From positions 1 through 58,732 of the forward strand of contig SKQU01000259.1 in assembly GCA_007118855.1 (NCBI GenBank): a DNA stretch of 58,732 nucleotides, read 5' to 3'. The position numbers and the translations under genes were made by a program. This DNA comes from Spirochaetaceae bacterium (lineage in GTDB: Bacteria > Spirochaetota > Spirochaetia > DSM-27196 > SLST01). The notes beneath the pieces were generated by a model. The model saw only the letters and a program-made list of their open reading frames with translations. It was not told where the DNA came from and ran no database searches. Positions 11,469 through 20,971 of the stretch are shown piece after piece (position 1 is the stretch's first letter; every line of letters begins with the position of its first letter).

Positions 11469-12406
11469 TGCGTGGCGCCGGCCCCTGCGCTCTTGCCTTT
11501 CTGGTCGCGACGGGCCTCCTCGTTTCCTGTTCCACCGCGCCGAGGACGCCTGACACGGTCACCGACGTGAAAGACCGCGCCGCCGAACACGCGGAGTTCG
11601 GCAATCGCTACTATCGCCAGGCGAACTACCAGCAGGCGCTTCGCTTCTTCGAGCTCGCACTCGACGCCAACACGTCGGTGGACCACCTGCCGGGAGTCGC
11701 CCGCGCCCACAATTCGATAGGGAACGTCTACCTGGCCGTGGGCGAGATAGACGCGGCCGAGGCAAGCTTCATGCGCGCCTACCGGATCGCAACCATGCTC
11801 GACGATCCGGACCTGCTGCTGCAAAGCTCATCAAATCTGGGCCAGGCCGCGCTGCGACGCGGGCAGACCGAACTCGCCATGGAGTTTTTCAGCCGCGCGC
11901 TTGACTACCGCCCCCGGGTCACCAGCAGGGCCGACGTCGCGATCATCCTGCACAACATCGCTACCGTGTACAGCCGTCGCGGCGAGACCGAAGCCGCCGA
12001 ACGCCTGCTCCGGGAAGCGATGGCAATCAACACCGCCGAGCGCACCTGGCTCGAGCTCGCGTCCAACCATTACGCGCTCGCGGCGCTCTACAGCAGACAG
12101 GGCCGGTACTCCGAAGCGCGCGCACAGGCGCTTCGTGCCCTCGAGCTCGACAAGCAGGTGGAGAACTCCGTCGGCATAGCCTCCGACCTCAAGGCGCTCG
12201 GGATCATCGCCCGCCGGATGCAAGAGTACGAGTCGGCCGTCGACTATTTCACTCGTGCGCTTCAGGTGAGCGCGACGATCGGCCTGGTCGGCGAAGCAGC
12301 CGACGTTCTGAACCATCTCGCCTCGATCGCAGCGGATCTCGGCCGCAACGGGGAGGCCCAGCGGTATCAAGAACAGCGTGAAGCGCTCCTTCAGGAGGCC
12401 CGATGA
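11468..12406 (+). CDS. TPR-repeat lipoprotein
   Basis: Signal peptide with lipobox LLVSC, then multiple TPR units. Confidence 0.8.
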   Translation: MRGAGPCALAFLVATGLLVSCSTAPRTPDTVTDVKDRAAEHAEFGNRYYRQANYQQALRFFELALDANTSVDHLPGVARAHNSIGNVYLAVGEIDAAEASFMRAYRIATMLDDPDLLLQSSSNLGQAALRRGQTELAMEFFSRALDYRPRVTSRADVAIILHNIATVYSRRGETEAAERLLREAMAINTAERTWLELASNHYALAALYSRQGRYSEARAQALRALELDKQVENSVGIASDLKALGIIARRMQEYESAVDYFTRALQVSATIGLVGEAADVLNHLASIAADLGRNGEAQRYQEQREALLQEAR

Positions 12407-12594
12407 GCAAGCGTGGCGGTTCGATCGCGCGTCTGCTCGCCTGGGCGCTGCTCGCCCTCATCCTGCCGTTCGCCGGCGCTGCGATCGCGTTCCCTTTGTG
12501 GCACCTCGCGGTGAACCATCGCCTCGTCTACACGATCATCGTCGCGCTCGGCCTGACACTGATCGTGGTCGCGGCGCGCCGGAGAGGCGCATGA
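12403..12594 (+). CDS. Small two-TM membrane protein (63 aa)
   Basis: Overlaps both neighbours by 4 nt (ATGA), two hydrophobic segments; collinear in the operon. Confidence 0.6.
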   Translation: MSKRGGSIARLLAWALLALILPFAGAAIAFPLWHLAVNHRLVYTIIVALGLTLIVVAARRRGA

Positions 12595-13505
12595 GCCGGC
12601 CTCGACGGTGCCCGGTCGCGATCCTTGGATGCCTCCTCGTCTTCTGCGCACCGCTCGCCCATCTTCGCGCGGAATACCCGCTGATGGAACGTCTCGATCG
12701 CAGCGATCCGCTCTACCTGCAGCATCAGAACGACATTCAGCACTACTATCGCAGCGCGAGCGCGGGCGACGAACTGCCGCCCCTGCTCATCTACCGCTAC
12801 GACCTGCAGGAGCACGATACGCTCTTCGCCGTCGCGGCAAGGCTGTCCATGCCCTACAGCGCGATCGCGTCGCTGAATCGCCTCACCGGACCCTCGTTCG
12901 ACGAACGGTCGTCAATACTCATCCCGGGCATCCCCGGCATCTATCTTCCTCTGGATCCCGCGTCTGATCTGGAGATGATCATGCACGATCTGCGACGGGA
13001 CAGACCGGCCGACGTGCTCTCGCTGGCACTGCAAGACGGCAGACGGGCATACCGGTTCTACCCCGGAGAGGATTTCCTGGCCGAGGAGCGCACGGCATTC
13101 CTGGGAATGACCTTTCGCCATCCGCTGCCGAACGGCCGGTTGACCTCGCCGTACGGTCCGCGTATCAACCCCATCACCGCGCGCTACACCTTTCACGGCG
13201 GGGCCGATTACGCGGCTCCGGCGGGAACCCCGGTGCTCGCCGCGAGAGGCGGACGGGTGAGCCATACCGGTTCCGACGAGATACTCGGGATCTACATCAT
13301 CGTCGACCACAGCGGCGGCTTCCAGACGCTCTATGGGCACCTGAAGAGCATGCACGTGTCGTTGAACGACGAGGTCCGTTCAGGTATGATTCTAGGGAGG
13401 GTCGGCAGCACCGGGCAGGTAACCGGATCACATCTGCACTTCGAAATACGCCACAACGGCAGAACCCGCGACCCGGAAACCATGGTGCGACAGGACAGAC
13501 GATGA
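12591..13505 (+). CDS. M23-family peptidase with LysM-like N-terminal domain
   Basis: ATG at 12591 starts a signal peptide; HDTLFAVAARLSMPYSAIASLN LysM-like; HGGADYAAPAGTPVLAARGG...HSGGFQTLYGHL...VTGSHLHFEIR. Confidence 0.9.
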   Translation: MSRPRRCPVAILGCLLVFCAPLAHLRAEYPLMERLDRSDPLYLQHQNDIQHYYRSASAGDELPPLLIYRYDLQEHDTLFAVAARLSMPYSAIASLNRLTGPSFDERSSILIPGIPGIYLPLDPASDLEMIMHDLRRDRPADVLSLALQDGRRAYRFYPGEDFLAEERTAFLGMTFRHPLPNGRLTSPYGPRINPITARYTFHGGADYAAPAGTPVLAARGGRVSHTGSDEILGIYIIVDHSGGFQTLYGHLKSMHVSLNDEVRSGMILGRVGSTGQVTGSHLHFEIRHNGRTRDPETMVRQDRR

Positions 13506-14491
13506 AACTGATCACGGCGGCCGCACTGCTCCTCCTCTCCTCACCGTCCTTCGCCGAGACGCTGCGGGGACCCCTCGCCGCCGAGCTCACCGTCACGCCC
13601 GTTGAATCGGCGAGCGCGGAAGGGGTTGGCGTTGAAGGTATCGTGCTGATCCGGATCGACGGAGACCCCCGGTTCCTCGACGCCATCGACATTGAGATCA
13701 CGAGCCCCGCCGCCGTCGCCGAGCATGCGGGCGCCCTGACCCTCTCGGTCGTGGGCCCTATCAGCATGGAGGCTCGCGCCGACGTCGCAAGCGTCGTGGG
13801 CGAGGAGCTTCTGCGCCAGCCCTTGCAGCGCGGCGGAAAGACCTTCTACCAGGTCGTCCTGCGCGATGACGCCGATCCGGACGCGTTGACCACGGTGACC
13901 CGCATAGGCACCGTCGTCCCCCCTCAGACGTTTCCTCTCGCGCTCACGATCGTCCCTCGCATGAAGGGGCTCAGCGAAGCGATCCAGGCTGCTGAGTTCA
14001 CCGTCACGGCGCGTCCGGTGACGCGCAACGTTGCAGCGATAGCGGTCAGATACGTCCACGAGGACGGATCGTTTTTTGACCCCGAGGCCCCGCTCGCCCC
14101 GGACTTCGAGCTCACGATCGACGGACAGGCGGTCAGGGTAGACAGCGAGTACCTGGTGACGCCCGGACTCCACAGACTGCGGCTGCGTTCGCAACGCTAC
14201 CAGGACCAGGAGGTCACGATAGGCGTCGACAGGGGCCGCAGCGTCACCGTTGACGTGCCGCTTCGACTCGCTCTTGCCACGGTCCAGTACATCGTCCCAC
14301 GGGACGCGAGCGTCTACGTGAACGGCCGGCTGCGGGAAGGCTCGAGCGGGGACTTTACCGTACCGCCGGGAGAGCATACAATAGTAGTTGTGATGGGAGA
14401 GTACACGGTGACGCGGCGATTCCGCGTGGAGGAACGGCAGCGGTACTCAGTGTCCGTGACGCTGGATATCGTCATAGAAGAGATCAAGTAA
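13502..14491 (+). CDS. Secreted protein with PEGA-like C-terminal repeats
   Basis: Signal peptide; IVPRDASVYVNGRLREGSSGDFTVPPGEHTIVVVMGEY PEGA-like unit. Confidence 0.6.
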   Translation: MKLITAAALLLLSSPSFAETLRGPLAAELTVTPVESASAEGVGVEGIVLIRIDGDPRFLDAIDIEITSPAAVAEHAGALTLSVVGPISMEARADVASVVGEELLRQPLQRGGKTFYQVVLRDDADPDALTTVTRIGTVVPPQTFPLALTIVPRMKGLSEAIQAAEFTVTARPVTRNVAAIAVRYVHEDGSFFDPEAPLAPDFELTIDGQAVRVDSEYLVTPGLHRLRLRSQRYQDQEVTIGVDRGRSVTVDVPLRLALATVQYIVPRDASVYVNGRLREGSSGDFTVPPGEHTIVVVMGEYTVTRRFRVEERQRYSVSVTLDIVIEEIK

Positions 14492-14709: not shown

Positions 14710-17418
14710 ATGCGGTTTAACGGCAGGCGGCGCACCGCCCTGTTCCTCCTTGTGAGTCTTGCTGTCGTAGTAGCCGTGGTCGTCGGGGTTGCGGTCGGAG
14801 CCGCTATCGCGTCGGTCCGGAATATCCAGGAGATCTCCCGATCCACGGAGACCGAATCAGCCTTGCCGTCGGTCCTGATCGACCGGCACGGCCGGGAGAT
14901 CACCGAGCTCTTCGGCGAAGAGAAGCGCACCATCGTCTCCATAGAGGAGCTTCCCCGTCACCTGATCTACGCACTGATCACGCGCGAGGACCGGGCTTTC
15001 TTCCAGCACGGCGGGTTCAACCTCTGGCGGATGACCAGCGCGGCGGCCAATCTGGCCCTGAACTACGTCACCGGCGGTCGTGCCGGATACTTCTCCGGCG
15101 CGAGCACGATCACGCAGCAGCTGGCGAAGATGATGTACACCGACCAGAGCGTCACGATCGCCCGCAAGGTCCATGAGCTGTGGTGGGCGCTCCAGCTCGA
15201 GCGCCATCTCACGAAGTACGAAATCCTGGAGGAGTACTTCAACCGGATGCCCTTCGGGCACGGGACGTACGGGATAGAGGCCGCAAGCCAGTTCTACTTC
15301 GGTCACAGCGCCACGGAGCTCACCGTCGCCGAGTCGGTTCTGCTCGTCCTCCAACTCTCCAGTCCGAGTTTTCGCACCTACTCGCCCATCGCCAATCCGG
15401 AGAATGCCCGCGACCTGCAGCGAGAGATCCTCTCCCAGATGGTCGACCTGGGGTACACGACGCGCGAGCAGGCCGACGCGAGTTTCCAGGCGTACTGGGC
15501 CAACCACGACTACACCCGCAGCGCCAACACGGCGGCCTTCCTGGTACGCCTCGAGCGCGATCCTGCCCCCTGGTTCACCGAGCACGTGCGCATCCGGCTG
15601 CAGGACGAATTGCTGCTCGGGAGCGCCAATATCTACACCGACGGGTATCGAGTCCACACAACACTCGACCTCGACTACCAGAGGGCCGCTCAGCGACACC
15701 TGTGGGCCGGCATCCAGCAGGCCAACGAGACGTACCGCCGCAACCAGGCCGGGAACCAGGAGCGGATCGAGCGCTTCGTTCCCATGGTGGAGATGCTGTC
15801 GGTAGGGTTCGACGTGGAGAACATGCAGGTAGGCAGCGCCGCCGATCGCCGGAACGCAAAGGACTACTTCCGCGACGATCTGTCCCCTATCGTCGACATG
15901 GTCTCCATGATGTTCGACACAGGCGAGCAGGATGCGCTGCGCCAGGTGACCCGGGCGACCTATCTCGAGCGTCGGGCCCTTGCCGACCGAACCCGTGTAG
16001 AGGGTGCGCTCATCACCCTCGAGAACGAGACCGGGCATATCCTCGCGATGGTTGGAGGCAGCCCTTTTGAGGCGGGCAACCAGGTGAACCGGGCGATCAG
16101 CGCGATGCGCCCCCCCGGCAGCGCCTTCAAACCGCTCTACTATGCGGCGGCGATCGACAAGCGGACCGTCACCGCTGCGACCTCCTTTATAGACGCCCCG
16201 ATCGTCTTCTGGAACAACGACGGAACGCCCTACGCCCCCAAGAACTACAACGACGAATGGCGGGGCCCCACCCTCGTGCGTCATGCGCTTGCGACCTCGA
16301 TGAACGTCGTGTCGCTTCGCATACTCGATCAGGTTGGGTTCGCCGACGGACTCGGGACCGCAGGACGACTGCTGGGGCTGAACGAGACGCAGATGGTCCA
16401 GCGAGGGTTCGAGCCGCGCTATCCGGTAGGCCTGGGCACCGTGGCGGTGAGCCCGCTCCTCATGGCGCGAGCCTACGCAACCTTCCCGAGCGGGGGGCGC
16501 GAAGTAATACCCGTCTCGATCCGTTACATAGAAGACCGCCGGGGGAACACAATCCTTTCGCCGGCGCAGGACGTCGCACAGGAGCTCCTGCGAAAGGGGC
16601 CGAACGCGCAGATCGTATCGCCGCAAGCGGCGTACCTGATGGTCGATATGATGAAGAGCACGGTGGAGTACGGTACCTTGCGCAATCGTCGTCTGCTCGT
16701 GGGCGGATTCGACGAGATGCCCATGGCCGGCAAGACCGGCACGACGCAGAACTGGTCGGACGCCTGGACCGTAGGGTTCTCCCCCTACGTGACGACCGCC
16801 GTATGGCTCGGATTCGACCGTGGCGGCAGCAACAGTCTCGGCACCAACCAGACCGGCGCTCAGACCGCCGGGCCCATCTGGGCCTGGTACATGAAGGAGA
16901 TCCACAAGGAACTGCCTCCTCGTGAGTTCGAACGACCGTCAGGGCTCGTCGAGGTCACGGTTACGGCCCAAAGCGGGGCGCTGCCCACGGAAGACTACCG
17001 CGGGAGAACCATCCGCGAACTCTTCATCGCCGGAACCGAGCCCAAGACATTCGACACGGCCGAGACCTTCCATACCGATCGTCGCGACCGAATCGCTTCG
17101 CAGCTCTCCCGGCCCACGTCGCTCACGGCTGCCATAGGCGCTCAGAACTCGATCTTCTCCTCGCCTGCCGATACCGGGTCGCGCGGGAGTGAGCCTTCGG
17201 CCCCGAGCTTCGGCGCCGGCGTCAATCCGTTCCTCGACGATGTCGATGCGGACGTCCGCGAAGAAGCGCCGCCGGAGCCTGTCGAGCCGGAGCCTGTCGA
17301 GCCGGAGCCTGTCGAGCCGGAGCCTGTCGAGCCGGAGCCGGCTGAGGACCCGCTGCACGAGGAGCCGGACGACCCGGACGAGGACGACGACTCTGAACGG
17401 AATCCGTTACTGGACTAG
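14710..17418 (+). CDS. Class A penicillin-binding protein (PBP1A-like) with acidic C-terminal tail
   Basis: GT51 motifs (EDRAFFQHGGFN, STITQQLAKMM, EYFNRMPFGHGTYGIEAAS) and transpeptidase motifs (RPPGSAFKP, SMN, KTGTT). Confidence 0.95.
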   Translation: MRFNGRRRTALFLLVSLAVVVAVVVGVAVGAAIASVRNIQEISRSTETESALPSVLIDRHGREITELFGEEKRTIVSIEELPRHLIYALITREDRAFFQHGGFNLWRMTSAAANLALNYVTGGRAGYFSGASTITQQLAKMMYTDQSVTIARKVHELWWALQLERHLTKYEILEEYFNRMPFGHGTYGIEAASQFYFGHSATELTVAESVLLVLQLSSPSFRTYSPIANPENARDLQREILSQMVDLGYTTREQADASFQAYWANHDYTRSANTAAFLVRLERDPAPWFTEHVRIRLQDELLLGSANIYTDGYRVHTTLDLDYQRAAQRHLWAGIQQANETYRRNQAGNQERIERFVPMVEMLSVGFDVENMQVGSAADRRNAKDYFRDDLSPIVDMVSMMFDTGEQDALRQVTRATYLERRALADRTRVEGALITLENETGHILAMVGGSPFEAGNQVNRAISAMRPPGSAFKPLYYAAAIDKRTVTAATSFIDAPIVFWNNDGTPYAPKNYNDEWRGPTLVRHALATSMNVVSLRILDQVGFADGLGTAGRLLGLNETQMVQRGFEPRYPVGLGTVAVSPLLMARAYATFPSGGREVIPVSIRYIEDRRGNTILSPAQDVAQELLRKGPNAQIVSPQAAYLMVDMMKSTVEYGTLRNRRLLVGGFDEMPMAGKTGTTQNWSDAWTVGFSPYVTTAVWLGFDRGGSNSLGTNQTGAQTAGPIWAWYMKEIHKELPPREFERPSGLVEVTVTAQSGALPTEDYRGRTIRELFIAGTEPKTFDTAETFHTDRRDRIASQLSRPTSLTAAIGAQNSIFSSPADTGSRGSEPSAPSFGAGVNPFLDDVDADVREEAPPEPVEPEPVEPEPVEPEPVEPEPAEDPLHEEPDDPDEDDDSERNPLLD
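17272..17340 (+). repeat. 15-bp in-frame tandem repeat, about 4.5 copies (EPVEP units)
   Basis: ccggagcctgtcgag repeated four times from 17272 plus a partial copy. Confidence 0.95.
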
Positions 17419-17426
17419 GAGTTTCG

Positions 17427-17816
17427 GTGCAGATCGATATCGAAGAGATCATCATCCGCAAACGTGTGCGCAAGAACCTCGGGGATCTCACCTCGCTCAT
17501 GGAAAGCCTTCGCCGCCATGGACTCCTCAATCCGATCGTCATCAGCAACCGCAACGAGCTCGTTGCCGGGCACCGAAGGACCGAGGCGGCCCGAAGGCTC
17601 GGGTGGAAGACGATCGAGGCGCGGATCGTTGACGACCGCGACGAGGGGGATCTCGTCGAAATGGAGATCGAGGAGAACACCCAACGCAAGAGCCTCACAC
17701 CGGACGAGCTTGCCGAAGCCTACCTGCGGCTCGACAAGATCAGAAACCCCGGCCTCTTCGGCCGCATCTGGAGGGCGATCAAAAAGTTCTTCCGCAGGCT
17801 CTTCGGCAGACGGTGA
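17427..17816 (+). CDS. Stand-alone ParB-like N-terminal-domain protein with cationic amphipathic C-terminus
   Basis: LMESLRRHGLLNPIVISNRNELVAGHRRTEAARRLGW (ParB/Srx motif GHRR), then ENTQRKSLTPDELAEAY, ending NPGLFGRIWRAIKKFFRRLFGRR. Confidence 0.88.
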   Translation: MQIDIEEIIIRKRVRKNLGDLTSLMESLRRHGLLNPIVISNRNELVAGHRRTEAARRLGWKTIEARIVDDRDEGDLVEMEIEENTQRKSLTPDELAEAYLRLDKIRNPGLFGRIWRAIKKFFRRLFGRR

Positions 17817-17834: not shown

Positions 17835-19403
17835 CTACCAGATCTCACCGAACGCATGCGGCCGCTCGCAGTACTTGCACGTATAGCGGTCCAGAGCGGC
17901 GCGAAGGAACTCCGGCGTAACCGGTTCGTGATGTGACGGGTGGCTGATACAGTCCTCGTTCTTGCAGGTTATCCCCGGCAGATTGTAGACGCGAGGCGGC
18001 ATCCCCATCCGGTACTTCCGTACGACCCTGCCGTCCTTGACGATGTTGAGCGTACACCCGGGGGCACTTGCTCCGAGCATCTTGATCTCGTGTTCGGCGA
18101 GCTCAATGAGATCAGGAAGCGAGATCATGCCTTTGTGCGACCCTTCTCCGCCGGTGTAGACGCCGTGAGAGCTGATGCGGTCGAGCCCCAGGATCCTGCG
18201 GATCTTGTCGATCTGATCCCAGATCTCGCGGGGCGAGGAGTCGCGCCCTATATGATCGATGACGATCCCGTTCTGAACCGGTTTGATACCGACCTTGTAG
18301 TCCGGCTTGCTCCGTCGCAGCGCCTCGACCTCGTGGACGAAGTCGTCAGGATAGTCGGGCTCGCGCCGAACGGTTCCCTCGAACTCATCTCCAAGGTGGC
18401 CGGCAACCATCGCGATTTCAACCATGCGGGTGTAGTAGCCGTTCATGCTCTGCAGTTCCCAGGCGTTCAGCGGCGTGTCGTCGAGAAACGACGGAATCGT
18501 CGGTGTGATCTGGTGCCTCGGAAGCGGGTGGTAGAAGCGCGTATGCTCGTCGATCGATGCGAGGAAACTCTTGCGGAACGTCACCGACTCACGGAGCCGG
18601 TCTGCCTTGTCGAGCAACTGGTCGCCCATTCGCTCCAGCTGCAGCCGGGTGAAGTACCAGATTGGAGCCACGCGCTTCTGCGCGAGGTACTCGGCGATCC
18701 CGGAGAAGGTCCGCACGGCGTACCCGCACTCGTGCATACGCTGCACGTAGTGATCCGGCATCGATATCTCCTGCGGAGCCACCAGGTCGACCTCTACCTC
18801 ATGAAAGACCTGCAGCCCGTCGACCTTGGAGTGCACGGTCCTGCCGTGGAACAGGTCTCCCACGAGCGCAAGGTGGATGTGGGACCGGTCCCAGGAGAGC
18901 TGTTCGAGAAAGCTGAACTCGTCGAGGAACTCCTGCGTCGGATGTTCATGGCGCCCGTCGCCGCCGTTGATGAAGGAGGCCGACGGCAGGCCCTGCTTGC
19001 CCGTATACACGCCAACGGAATGCTCGAGCCACCGGCAGGTGCCTTCGAGTCGCGTCCGCAGTACGAAGATCGACTGATCCGAATACCCCACGAGCATCTT
19101 GATCGTGTCCGTGATGCTCTCCTTCTTGCTGAACGACGAGCCGGCGACCGCGAAGTCGTTGAGCTTCACCCGGTGGAACTTCGCGGCGTTACGGAAGGAC
19201 TCCTTCGTGCGGGTCGAGTCCTCCAGAAACAGGAGGTAGACACCGATCTCCGGCCGGTCGATGCGAAATCTTTCCACGATGCGCCGATCACCGTCGCGCA
19301 ACGACGCCTTCAGGAGTCTCGTCTGGTCGTAGAGGTAGACCTGCTCGTCGACGGAGAGGTCGCGAACAACCTGTATCGTGCGACCGGCGAACGGTGAGCT
19401 CAC
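17835..19403 (-). CDS. pyrBI: Aspartate carbamoyltransferase, fused catalytic and regulatory chains (PyrB-PyrI)
   Basis: FLEDSTRTKESFRNAAKFH, HPTQEFLDEF, FYHPLPRH (PyrB); YKVGIKPVQNGIVIDHI and Cys4 zinc motif CKNEDCIS...CKYC (PyrI). Confidence 0.95.
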   Translation of the reverse strand: MSSPFAGRTIQVVRDLSVDEQVYLYDQTRLLKASLRDGDRRIVERFRIDRPEIGVYLLFLEDSTRTKESFRNAAKFHRVKLNDFAVAGSSFSKKESITDTIKMLVGYSDQSIFVLRTRLEGTCRWLEHSVGVYTGKQGLPSASFINGGDGRHEHPTQEFLDEFSFLEQLSWDRSHIHLALVGDLFHGRTVHSKVDGLQVFHEVEVDLVAPQEISMPDHYVQRMHECGYAVRTFSGIAEYLAQKRVAPIWYFTRLQLERMGDQLLDKADRLRESVTFRKSFLASIDEHTRFYHPLPRHQITPTIPSFLDDTPLNAWELQSMNGYYTRMVEIAMVAGHLGDEFEGTVRREPDYPDDFVHEVEALRRSKPDYKVGIKPVQNGIVIDHIGRDSSPREIWDQIDKIRRILGLDRISSHGVYTGGEGSHKGMISLPDLIELAEHEIKMLGASAPGCTLNIVKDGRVVRKYRMGMPPRVYNLPGITCKNEDCISHPSHHEPVTPEFLRAALDRYTCKYCERPHAFGEIW

Positions 19404-20971
19404 GGGGCGATTCGAAGATCGTCAAGGGCGAGCGCGACGATCCGGTCGTCGGCGCTCTGCACCCACACCTTGTCTCCGCTGAAAGCGATGGTCGTGTACG
19501 GGTTCACGGCGATGACCGACCGGTCGACAAGCGCGAGCTCTGCGTCGAAGCGCCCGAGATGCCAGTCTCCGGCCGATCTGACGACCGCGTACACCCGTGC
19601 CGGGTCTCCCCGGACCTCCATCACGCTTGCGATGTGCACCTCATCCTCGCTTCGTCGCGTTTCGGCGAGCGTCGTGACATCGTAGTGGGCGAGCCGTCCC
19701 GACTCGCCGTCGGCGACGACCACGAGGAGGCGCTCGGCGTGGAACGTATACCTGCGGCTGACGATCCGGTCTTCTCGAGAGCGGTTGAGAAGCAGGCCCG
19801 TGACCGGGTTGATCTGGATCAGCTGGCCGAGAATCAGCCCGGCTTCGTCGCGTATGCGAAGGAAGTAGACAGGGGAGAGCGTGCCCGAGAGCCCACGGAC
19901 CTCTTCAGAGATCTCGCGCTCATCAAGGAGCGCGCGGGCGTCACGCGCGATGCGTTCGCGCTCGGCACGGACCCGGTCGGTCAGATCGGCTATCTCCTGC
20001 CGGTCGTCGATGATTGCCTCGCGCCGCTCTTCCGCGGCACGTCGCTCCTCCTCGAGCCGTCTCTCGCGCTCGGCGAGCTCTTCGTCTCTCGCCACGAGCT
20101 CTTCTTCGGCGGGCTCGCGCTCCTCCTCCGGCAATGCGGCGATCTCTTCGCGCTCGGCGGCGATCCGCTCTCGCTCCTCGGCGATCCGCGCCTCCTCCTC
20201 CGCGACGCGCTCCTCCTCCCGCAGAATGGCCTCTTCCTCGCGCGCGACCGTTTCCTCGCGCTCCTCGATTACCCGCTCGGTCAGATCGATCATCTCACGG
20301 CGCTCTTCAACACCGCGATCGTCGAGCGTGCGCAGCTCTTCGATCACGCGGTCGTCGGCGATTTCGCCCGGATCAACGGCGCCGATGACTCCGGGCGCGG
20401 CCGTCGTGGAAAGCGGGATGACGATGCGACTCTGACCCGGCCACTCGTCGTACCGTCGCGACAATCCGGCATTCGCCGCGGTGAGGTTCCCGGTGACGAC
20501 GGGTTTGTACCGTTCGCCGAAGAACTCCATGTTGCCGCGCACTACCGCATTATAGATCGTGATCCACCGCGCGAGCAGATCGGCGTCGGCAGGCGAATAA
20601 GTGTAGGCCTCCTGGAGGAAGCCCGAGATGATCCGTCTGAGGTTGTTGATGTGATCGACTCGTGCGCTCGCGAGCGGCACGATGATGTCGGCGTCGAAGC
20701 GGTCGCGAACCGCCGGATCCACCGCGTGGATCACGCGGTACCTGCCGGCGAGGACGAAATCGCTGGAGGCGGGACCGACGTCGACGCCGGCGCCGAGCGA
20801 GCGGCCGATACCGACGATCTCCTCTATCGTGTTGATCGTCTCGTACGGTCCGGTGTAGTTGATGAACTCCACGTCGCGGGTGCCAAGCTCTCGCAGCTCC
20901 TCCTCGGCGACGTCGAGTGCGAACAGGAATGGGGTGAGCAGCAGAAGCACTGCGATCAGACCTCGTCGCAT
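19400..20971 (-). CDS. P83/100-family protein
   Basis: Signal peptide; FINYTGPYETINTIEEIVGIGRSL and NLRRIISGFLQEAYTYSPADADLLARWITIYNAVVRGNMEFF...NAGLSRRYDEWPGQSRIVIPL resemble Borrelia P83/100 as recalled; central Glu/Arg coiled coil; C-terminal propeller-like part. Confidence 0.85.
   Translation of the reverse strand: MRRGLIAVLLLLTPFLFALDVAEEELRELGTRDVEFINYTGPYETINTIEEIVGIGRSLGAGVDVGPASSDFVLAGRYRVIHAVDPAVRDRFDADIIVPLASARVDHINNLRRIISGFLQEAYTYSPADADLLARWITIYNAVVRGNMEFFGERYKPVVTGNLTAANAGLSRRYDEWPGQSRIVIPLSTTAAPGVIGAVDPGEIADDRVIEELRTLDDRGVEERREMIDLTERVIEEREETVAREEEAILREEERVAEEEARIAEERERIAAEREEIAALPEEEREPAEEELVARDEELAERERRLEEERRAAEERREAIIDDRQEIADLTDRVRAERERIARDARALLDEREISEEVRGLSGTLSPVYFLRIRDEAGLILGQLIQINPVTGLLLNRSREDRIVSRRYTFHAERLLVVVADGESGRLAHYDVTTLAETRRSEDEVHIASVMEVRGDPARVYAVVRSAGDWHLGRFDAELALVDRSVIAVNPYTTIAFSGDKVWVQSADDRIVALALDDLRIAP

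Follow-up and report, generated by a model that had tools for sequence, protein, structure and literature searches.

A stand-alone ParB-type domain with a conserved amphipathic tail, encoded beside PBP1A in spirochaetes, as a candidate membrane-bound nucleotide switch

We analyzed a stretch of 58,732 nt (referred to as the window) from a Spirochaetaceae bacterium and found that the gene at positions 17427–17816 of the forward strand encodes a small protein, here termed ParBL, in which a stand-alone ParB N-domain is joined to a conserved C-terminal amphipathic helix. The reading that we favour, with moderate confidence, is that ParBL acts as a peripheral switch at the inner membrane that responds to a nucleotide, probably CTP. 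A search of the open-access literature found no study of this protein.

The open reading frame is real and its translation is as the first-pass annotation had described it, with a length of 129 aa and a GTG start. An AGGAG ribosome-binding-like site (17417–17421, +) overlaps the stop codon of the preceding gene and lies 5 nt before the GTG, and the valine or methionine starts of the orthologues align with this position. The profile PF02195 (ParB_N) matches residues 19–86 with 39.7 bits (cut-off 26.3) and the NCBIfam model parB_part is reached with 60.6 bits (cut-off 58.45); the match to the Noc family TIGR04285 is partial (57.9 bits, cut-off 315) and ends at residue 102. The AlphaFold2 model, built with 28 sequences (pLDDT 82), shows a ParB-type core whose last helix comprises residues 92–106 (17700–17744, +), followed by a break at NPG and a further helix at residues 110–126 (pLDDT about 70). 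The best Foldseek matches in the PDB are Noc (7nfu, E=6e-7), PadC (6ryk) and ParB (6sdk and 7bnk). By both profile score and fold, ParBL is a member of the ParB N-terminal domain superfamily. Since PF02195 is its only domain, and domain searches of the 129 aa found neither an HTH nor a C-terminal dimerisation domain behind it, the proposal of a stand-alone ParB nucleotide-binding domain is borne out. A canonical full-length ParB (327 aa, with HTH and C-terminal region) is encoded elsewhere in the same genome; this and the intact frames conserved in dozens of families rule out a truncated pseudogene of canonical ParB.

The helix at residues 110–126 (17754–17804, +) is cationic and amphipathic, and from the AlphaFold2 model and the tail statistics we predict it to be an in-plane membrane anchor. 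Its best 18-mer has a hydrophobic moment of 0.79 and a net charge of +7, values that are reached by none of 686 control C-termini taken from other long ORFs of the same loci. Across 147 distinct family members the median net charge is +8 and the median hydrophobic moment 0.71, and 96 of the 147 tails show D>2 with muH>0.5, compared to 1 of the 686 controls. Positions 110, 111, 114, 115, 117, 118, 121, 122, 125 and 126 are hydrophobic in 84–100% of these members, position 113 is basic in 97%, positions 124 and 128 are mostly basic, and acidic residues make up at most 10% at every position from 110 to 129. The control C-termini, together with shuffles, rule out that the tail arises from chance or composition. 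In three closely related rumen proteins the helix is less basic and the tail runs on into two hydrophobic segments of transmembrane length, which AlphaFold2 places in helices 130–162 and 166–203 (pLDDT 55–69, low to modest confidence) and models, with modest confidence, as a helical hairpin. The strongly cationic amphipathic C-terminal helix noted in the first pass is therefore confirmed, and lack of conservation, which had been named as an argument against it, was looked for and not found: the pattern is kept across the 147 members and is accompanied by two TM-like segments in one clade. The label ‘antimicrobial-peptide-like’ describes the composition of the tail and nothing beyond it. The tail pattern and the rumen extension are good indirect evidence that the C-terminus is located at the membrane, and on these sequence grounds the predicted membrane anchor is strongly supported.

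Directly upstream of ParBL lies a PBP1A-family bifunctional class A penicillin-binding protein (14710–17418, +). The stop codon of PBP1A ends at 17418 and ParBL starts at 17427, so the gap of 8 nt reported earlier is correct, and the two genes are probably co-transcribed. They are preceded by a conserved cluster of a PEGA-domain protein (13502–14491, +) and an M23 peptidase of the peptidoglycan hydrolase type (12378–13505, +; its start may lie further in), and a fused aspartate carbamoyltransferase (ATCase) with catalytic and regulatory chains (17835–19403, −) converges from downstream; all four genes were assigned by domain match and synteny. Aspartate carbamoyltransferase is an enzyme class regulated by CTP. 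Its position beside ParBL is probably a coincidence because the downstream neighbour varies (ATCase or P83-type), and we treat it as context outside the proposed system. The window also encodes a homologue of the Borrelia P83/100 protein at 19400–20971 (Borrelia_P83, 297 bits).

For the linkage to the PBP gene we observed that PBP1A is located directly upstream of ParBL in 70 of the 76 named loci that could be tested, and that four of the other six belong to a clade labelled as other phyla. A same-strand PBP1A directly upstream is found in nearly all loci of the class Spirochaetia with upstream sequence, and where the sequence reaches far enough upstream, PBP1A is in most cases preceded by M23 and PEGA genes. 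The linkage is kept even in a Borrelia-like genome, although the other neighbours seen in the window are gone. In the small-genome family f26 (0.9–1.9 Mb), Borrelia-like ParBL orthologues are present in the order PilZN3, PBP, ParBL, phosphoglucose isomerase, dicarboxylate symporter and disulfide reductase; this order appears to match that of the B. burgdorferi chromosome around plzA, where ParBL would presumably be BB_0731. No PBP1A was found beside ParBL in the T. denticola-like genomes and outgroup families examined: in one T. denticola-like locus (L197) PBP1A is missing and an M23 gene lies two genes upstream, and another (L198) has neither. Outside the class the neighbours include NfeD, FMN_bind and RuvA, and in three families an exported or lipoprotein-like protein of ~640 aa follows directly downstream (L199:5399–7282, L202:2974–4956 and L207:3056–4984; no Pfam match, 22–26% mutual identity). 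The association with a PBP gene suggested by the first-pass annotation is thus strong only within one class (70 of the 76 named loci) and absent in T. denticola-like genomes and outgroups, and many genomes have lost ParBL while retaining PBP1A. A docking motif was looked for in the cytoplasmic N-tail of PBP1A; this tail is short, and no obvious conserved motif was found there. The PBP1A orthologues (17260–17418 in the window, and related loci) end in a short peptide, NPLLD or a variant of it, that is strongly conserved and follows a variable acidic linker, often Pro/Glu-rich.

All 61 genomes of a first sample gave a match, most of them a ParBL-type hit at E<1e-25, in a tally that pools ParBL with canonical ParB. 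A scan of 393 genomes from the phylum found strong matches to ParBL in most families; the gene is missing, or only a canonical ParB signal is present, in all of f16, f42 and f29, in parts of f24 (including one genome of 1.1 Mb) and f27, and in scattered others. In two loci (L232 and L234) the order PBP1A–ATCase–P83 is intact with only 40–112 nt at the expected ParBL site, a clean gap that argues for loss and against relocation. In family f16, the transglycosylase domain of class A PBPs is missing from 14 of 14 genomes tested, ParBL is absent in all of them, and FliG is absent in 5 of 5 tested. We regard the joint absence of ParBL and the transglycosylase domain as a single confounded event because it concerns one clade that also lacks FliG. 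The lack of a class A transglycosylase domain and of FliG fits Sphaerochaeta-like organisms. A general flagellar link is excluded, since FliG is kept by many genomes without ParBL. Named ParBL records come from Spirochaetales, Spirochaetaceae, Marispirochaeta and Treponema. Seven further members, from genomes labelled Lentisphaerae, Haloferula and Kiritimatiellae or from class relatives, group together in a single clade (support 0.925), and a class sample gave a match in 5 of 57 genomes, one of them weaker; acquisition of the gene by transfer from spirochaetes is likely. Three of the Kiritimatiellae- or Lentisphaerae-labelled loci (L219, L220 and L221) encode an additional short ParB_N protein that is more divergent and likewise has a short amphipathic cationic segment at its C-terminus. 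A mobile or viral origin was rejected, as the proteins matched in IMG/VR are either longer or otherwise different members of ParB_N, some of them fused to methyltransferase-like regions and none with the tail; a plasmid origin was likewise rejected, the plasmid matches listed being ordinary ParB.

The closest known relative by sequence and fold is Noc, which shares the ParB-type N-domain and whose amphipathic helix binds the membrane under CTP control (PMC8429893, PMC4331003); the ParBL helix would be its counterpart. In Noc, bound CTP is proposed to release the helix and switches the protein into a form that is active at the membrane (PMC8429893). The helix is N-terminal in Noc and C-terminal in ParBL, where the core forms the N-terminus. 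Moreover, Noc binds NBS DNA and carries an HTH and a C-terminal dimerisation domain, whereas ParBL has no DNA-binding domain and, unlike Noc, could not by itself bridge DNA to the membrane. This kinship allows another reading, in which ParBL is a membrane-bound adaptor for chromosome organisation: its N-domain would pair with a nucleoid protein, either canonical ParB or a different one, and ParBL would anchor the origin region at the membrane; it would then be a two-component version of Noc, and the PBP neighbourhood would reflect operon history only. ParB N-domains self-associate, which makes hetero-pairing conceivable, a suitable partner exists in the full canonical ParB of the same genome, and the outgroups have no PBP neighbour. 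However, the loci examined contain no parA or parB neighbour and 70 of the 76 named loci keep PBP1A instead, and ParBL begins at the core, without the ParA-contact N-terminal peptide. We therefore consider the adaptor reading unlikely.

We mapped the nucleotide pocket by aligning ParBL to the solved Noc and ParB chains. B. subtilis G77, E78, R80, E111 and N112 correspond to G48, H49, R51, E83 and N84. The GHRR motif (residues 48–51, 17568–17579, +) is the equivalent of GE78RR with the catalytic Glu changed to His, and the ENTQR motif (residues 83–87, 17673–17687, +) that of E111NLQR, with E, N and R invariant. N112 is a nucleotide-binding residue of the ParB-CTPase fold. The equivalents of G77, R80 and N112, by which binding is judged in this fold, are conserved as G48, R51 and N84, and G48, R50, R51, E83, N84 and R87 are invariant in a 28-row alignment of ParBL. 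Hydrolysis goes with both Glu residues, and ParBL retains only the equivalent of E111: among 147 members, position 49 is occupied by H 79 times, by E 32 times, by Y 16 times, by Q 11 times and by another residue 9 times, so that the catalytic E78 equivalent is replaced in 115, most ParBL members differing in this from Noc. In B. subtilis ParB, G77S and R80A disturb the binding of CTP and E78Q and E111Q abolish hydrolysis, with similar initial results for alanine and histidine substitutions (PMC8494293). The non-canonical ParB-type domain of PadC from Myxococcus, which has F at the E78 position, binds CTP without hydrolysing it (PMC8494293). From the kept binding residues and the mostly replaced E78 equivalent, we predict that ParBL is likely to bind a nucleotide, and that hydrolysis is likely weak or absent in most members. 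A ‘CTP switch’ in the hydrolysing sense, as the earlier wording might imply, appears doubtful because the E78 equivalent is a His in ParBL. The bound nucleotide is probably CTP; nucleotide specificity is not reliably predictable from sequence according to a survey of the ParB-CTPase fold from 2025 (PMC12704722).

The same residues bear on two further readings. If ParBL were a nucleotide-independent scaffold, with the ParB fold in a structural adaptor role and with nothing but the tail and a surface for protein binding of importance, the replaced catalytic position and the frequent loss of the gene would be easy to accommodate; the six invariant pocket residues would be unexpected if nucleotide binding had been lost, and we regard this reading as distinctly improbable. 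That ParBL is a membrane-acting enzyme of the wider sulfiredoxin/free serine kinase fold, as weak Foldseek matches to both might hint, is very improbable, since the Noc and ParB matches are much stronger, the ENxxR motif is of the ParB type, and the 129 aa contain no cysteine at all, which speaks against a sulfiredoxin.

Comparison with other known systems also sets ParBL apart. PadC, which likewise lacks the E78 equivalent and uses the fold in an adaptor-like manner, is without the ENLQR motif that ParBL keeps (PMC8494293); it recruits ParA to bactofilin structures (PMC9712426), while ParBL is the shorter protein and carries a membrane tail. The CTP-binding core motifs are shared with canonical ParB/Spo0J, which differs from ParBL in its HTH, its C-terminal dimerisation domain, its parA neighbour and the catalytic Glu that is mostly replaced in ParBL. 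Phages and archaea have short ParB-fold proteins with a single domain (PMC12704722), which like ParBL are independent folds of ~100 aa but have no described membrane tail; ParBL, by contrast, is a bacterial protein with a chromosomal gene, and it is conserved across a phylum. In its main text the 2025 survey mentions neither spirochaetes nor amphipathic tails, refers to membrane binding for Noc only, and gives bacterial single-domain cases as mostly at least 300 aa long (PMC12704722).

In the switch that we favour, the C-terminal helix would be embedded in the inner membrane on its cytoplasmic side, and the preceding ParB-type domain would bind an NTP, most likely CTP. By analogy to ParB and Noc, binding would pair two ParBL domains, which may increase the avidity for the membrane and provide a surface on which a membrane partner could dock. 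Since the E78 equivalent is mostly replaced, hydrolysis would be slow or absent in most members, and the state of ParBL would follow the nucleotide level or release by a partner. In the class Spirochaetia, the position at the end of the M23–PEGA–PBP1A cluster points to a role in envelope growth; control of wall synthesis by ParBL is only suggested by this gene order. As to what is recruited, the operon suggests envelope synthesis and the fold suggests chromosome proteins. More speculative, and in our judgement rather unlikely in this full form, is a phylum-wide inner-membrane CTP/NTP sensor that reports the nucleotide state to the class A PBP/M23 machinery, and thus a DNA-free switch of envelope growth.

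ParB-type CTP switches are regarded mainly as DNA clamps, with Noc as the known case of a membrane helix. ParBL appears to be a minimal version kept across the spirochaete phylum, composed of the switch domain and a membrane tail without a DNA-binding part, and it usually shares an operon with a major enzyme of wall synthesis. It offers a small, testable system for a ParB fold working without DNA, and may provide an entry into the control of envelope growth in spirochaetes, including Lyme disease and oral spirochaetes.
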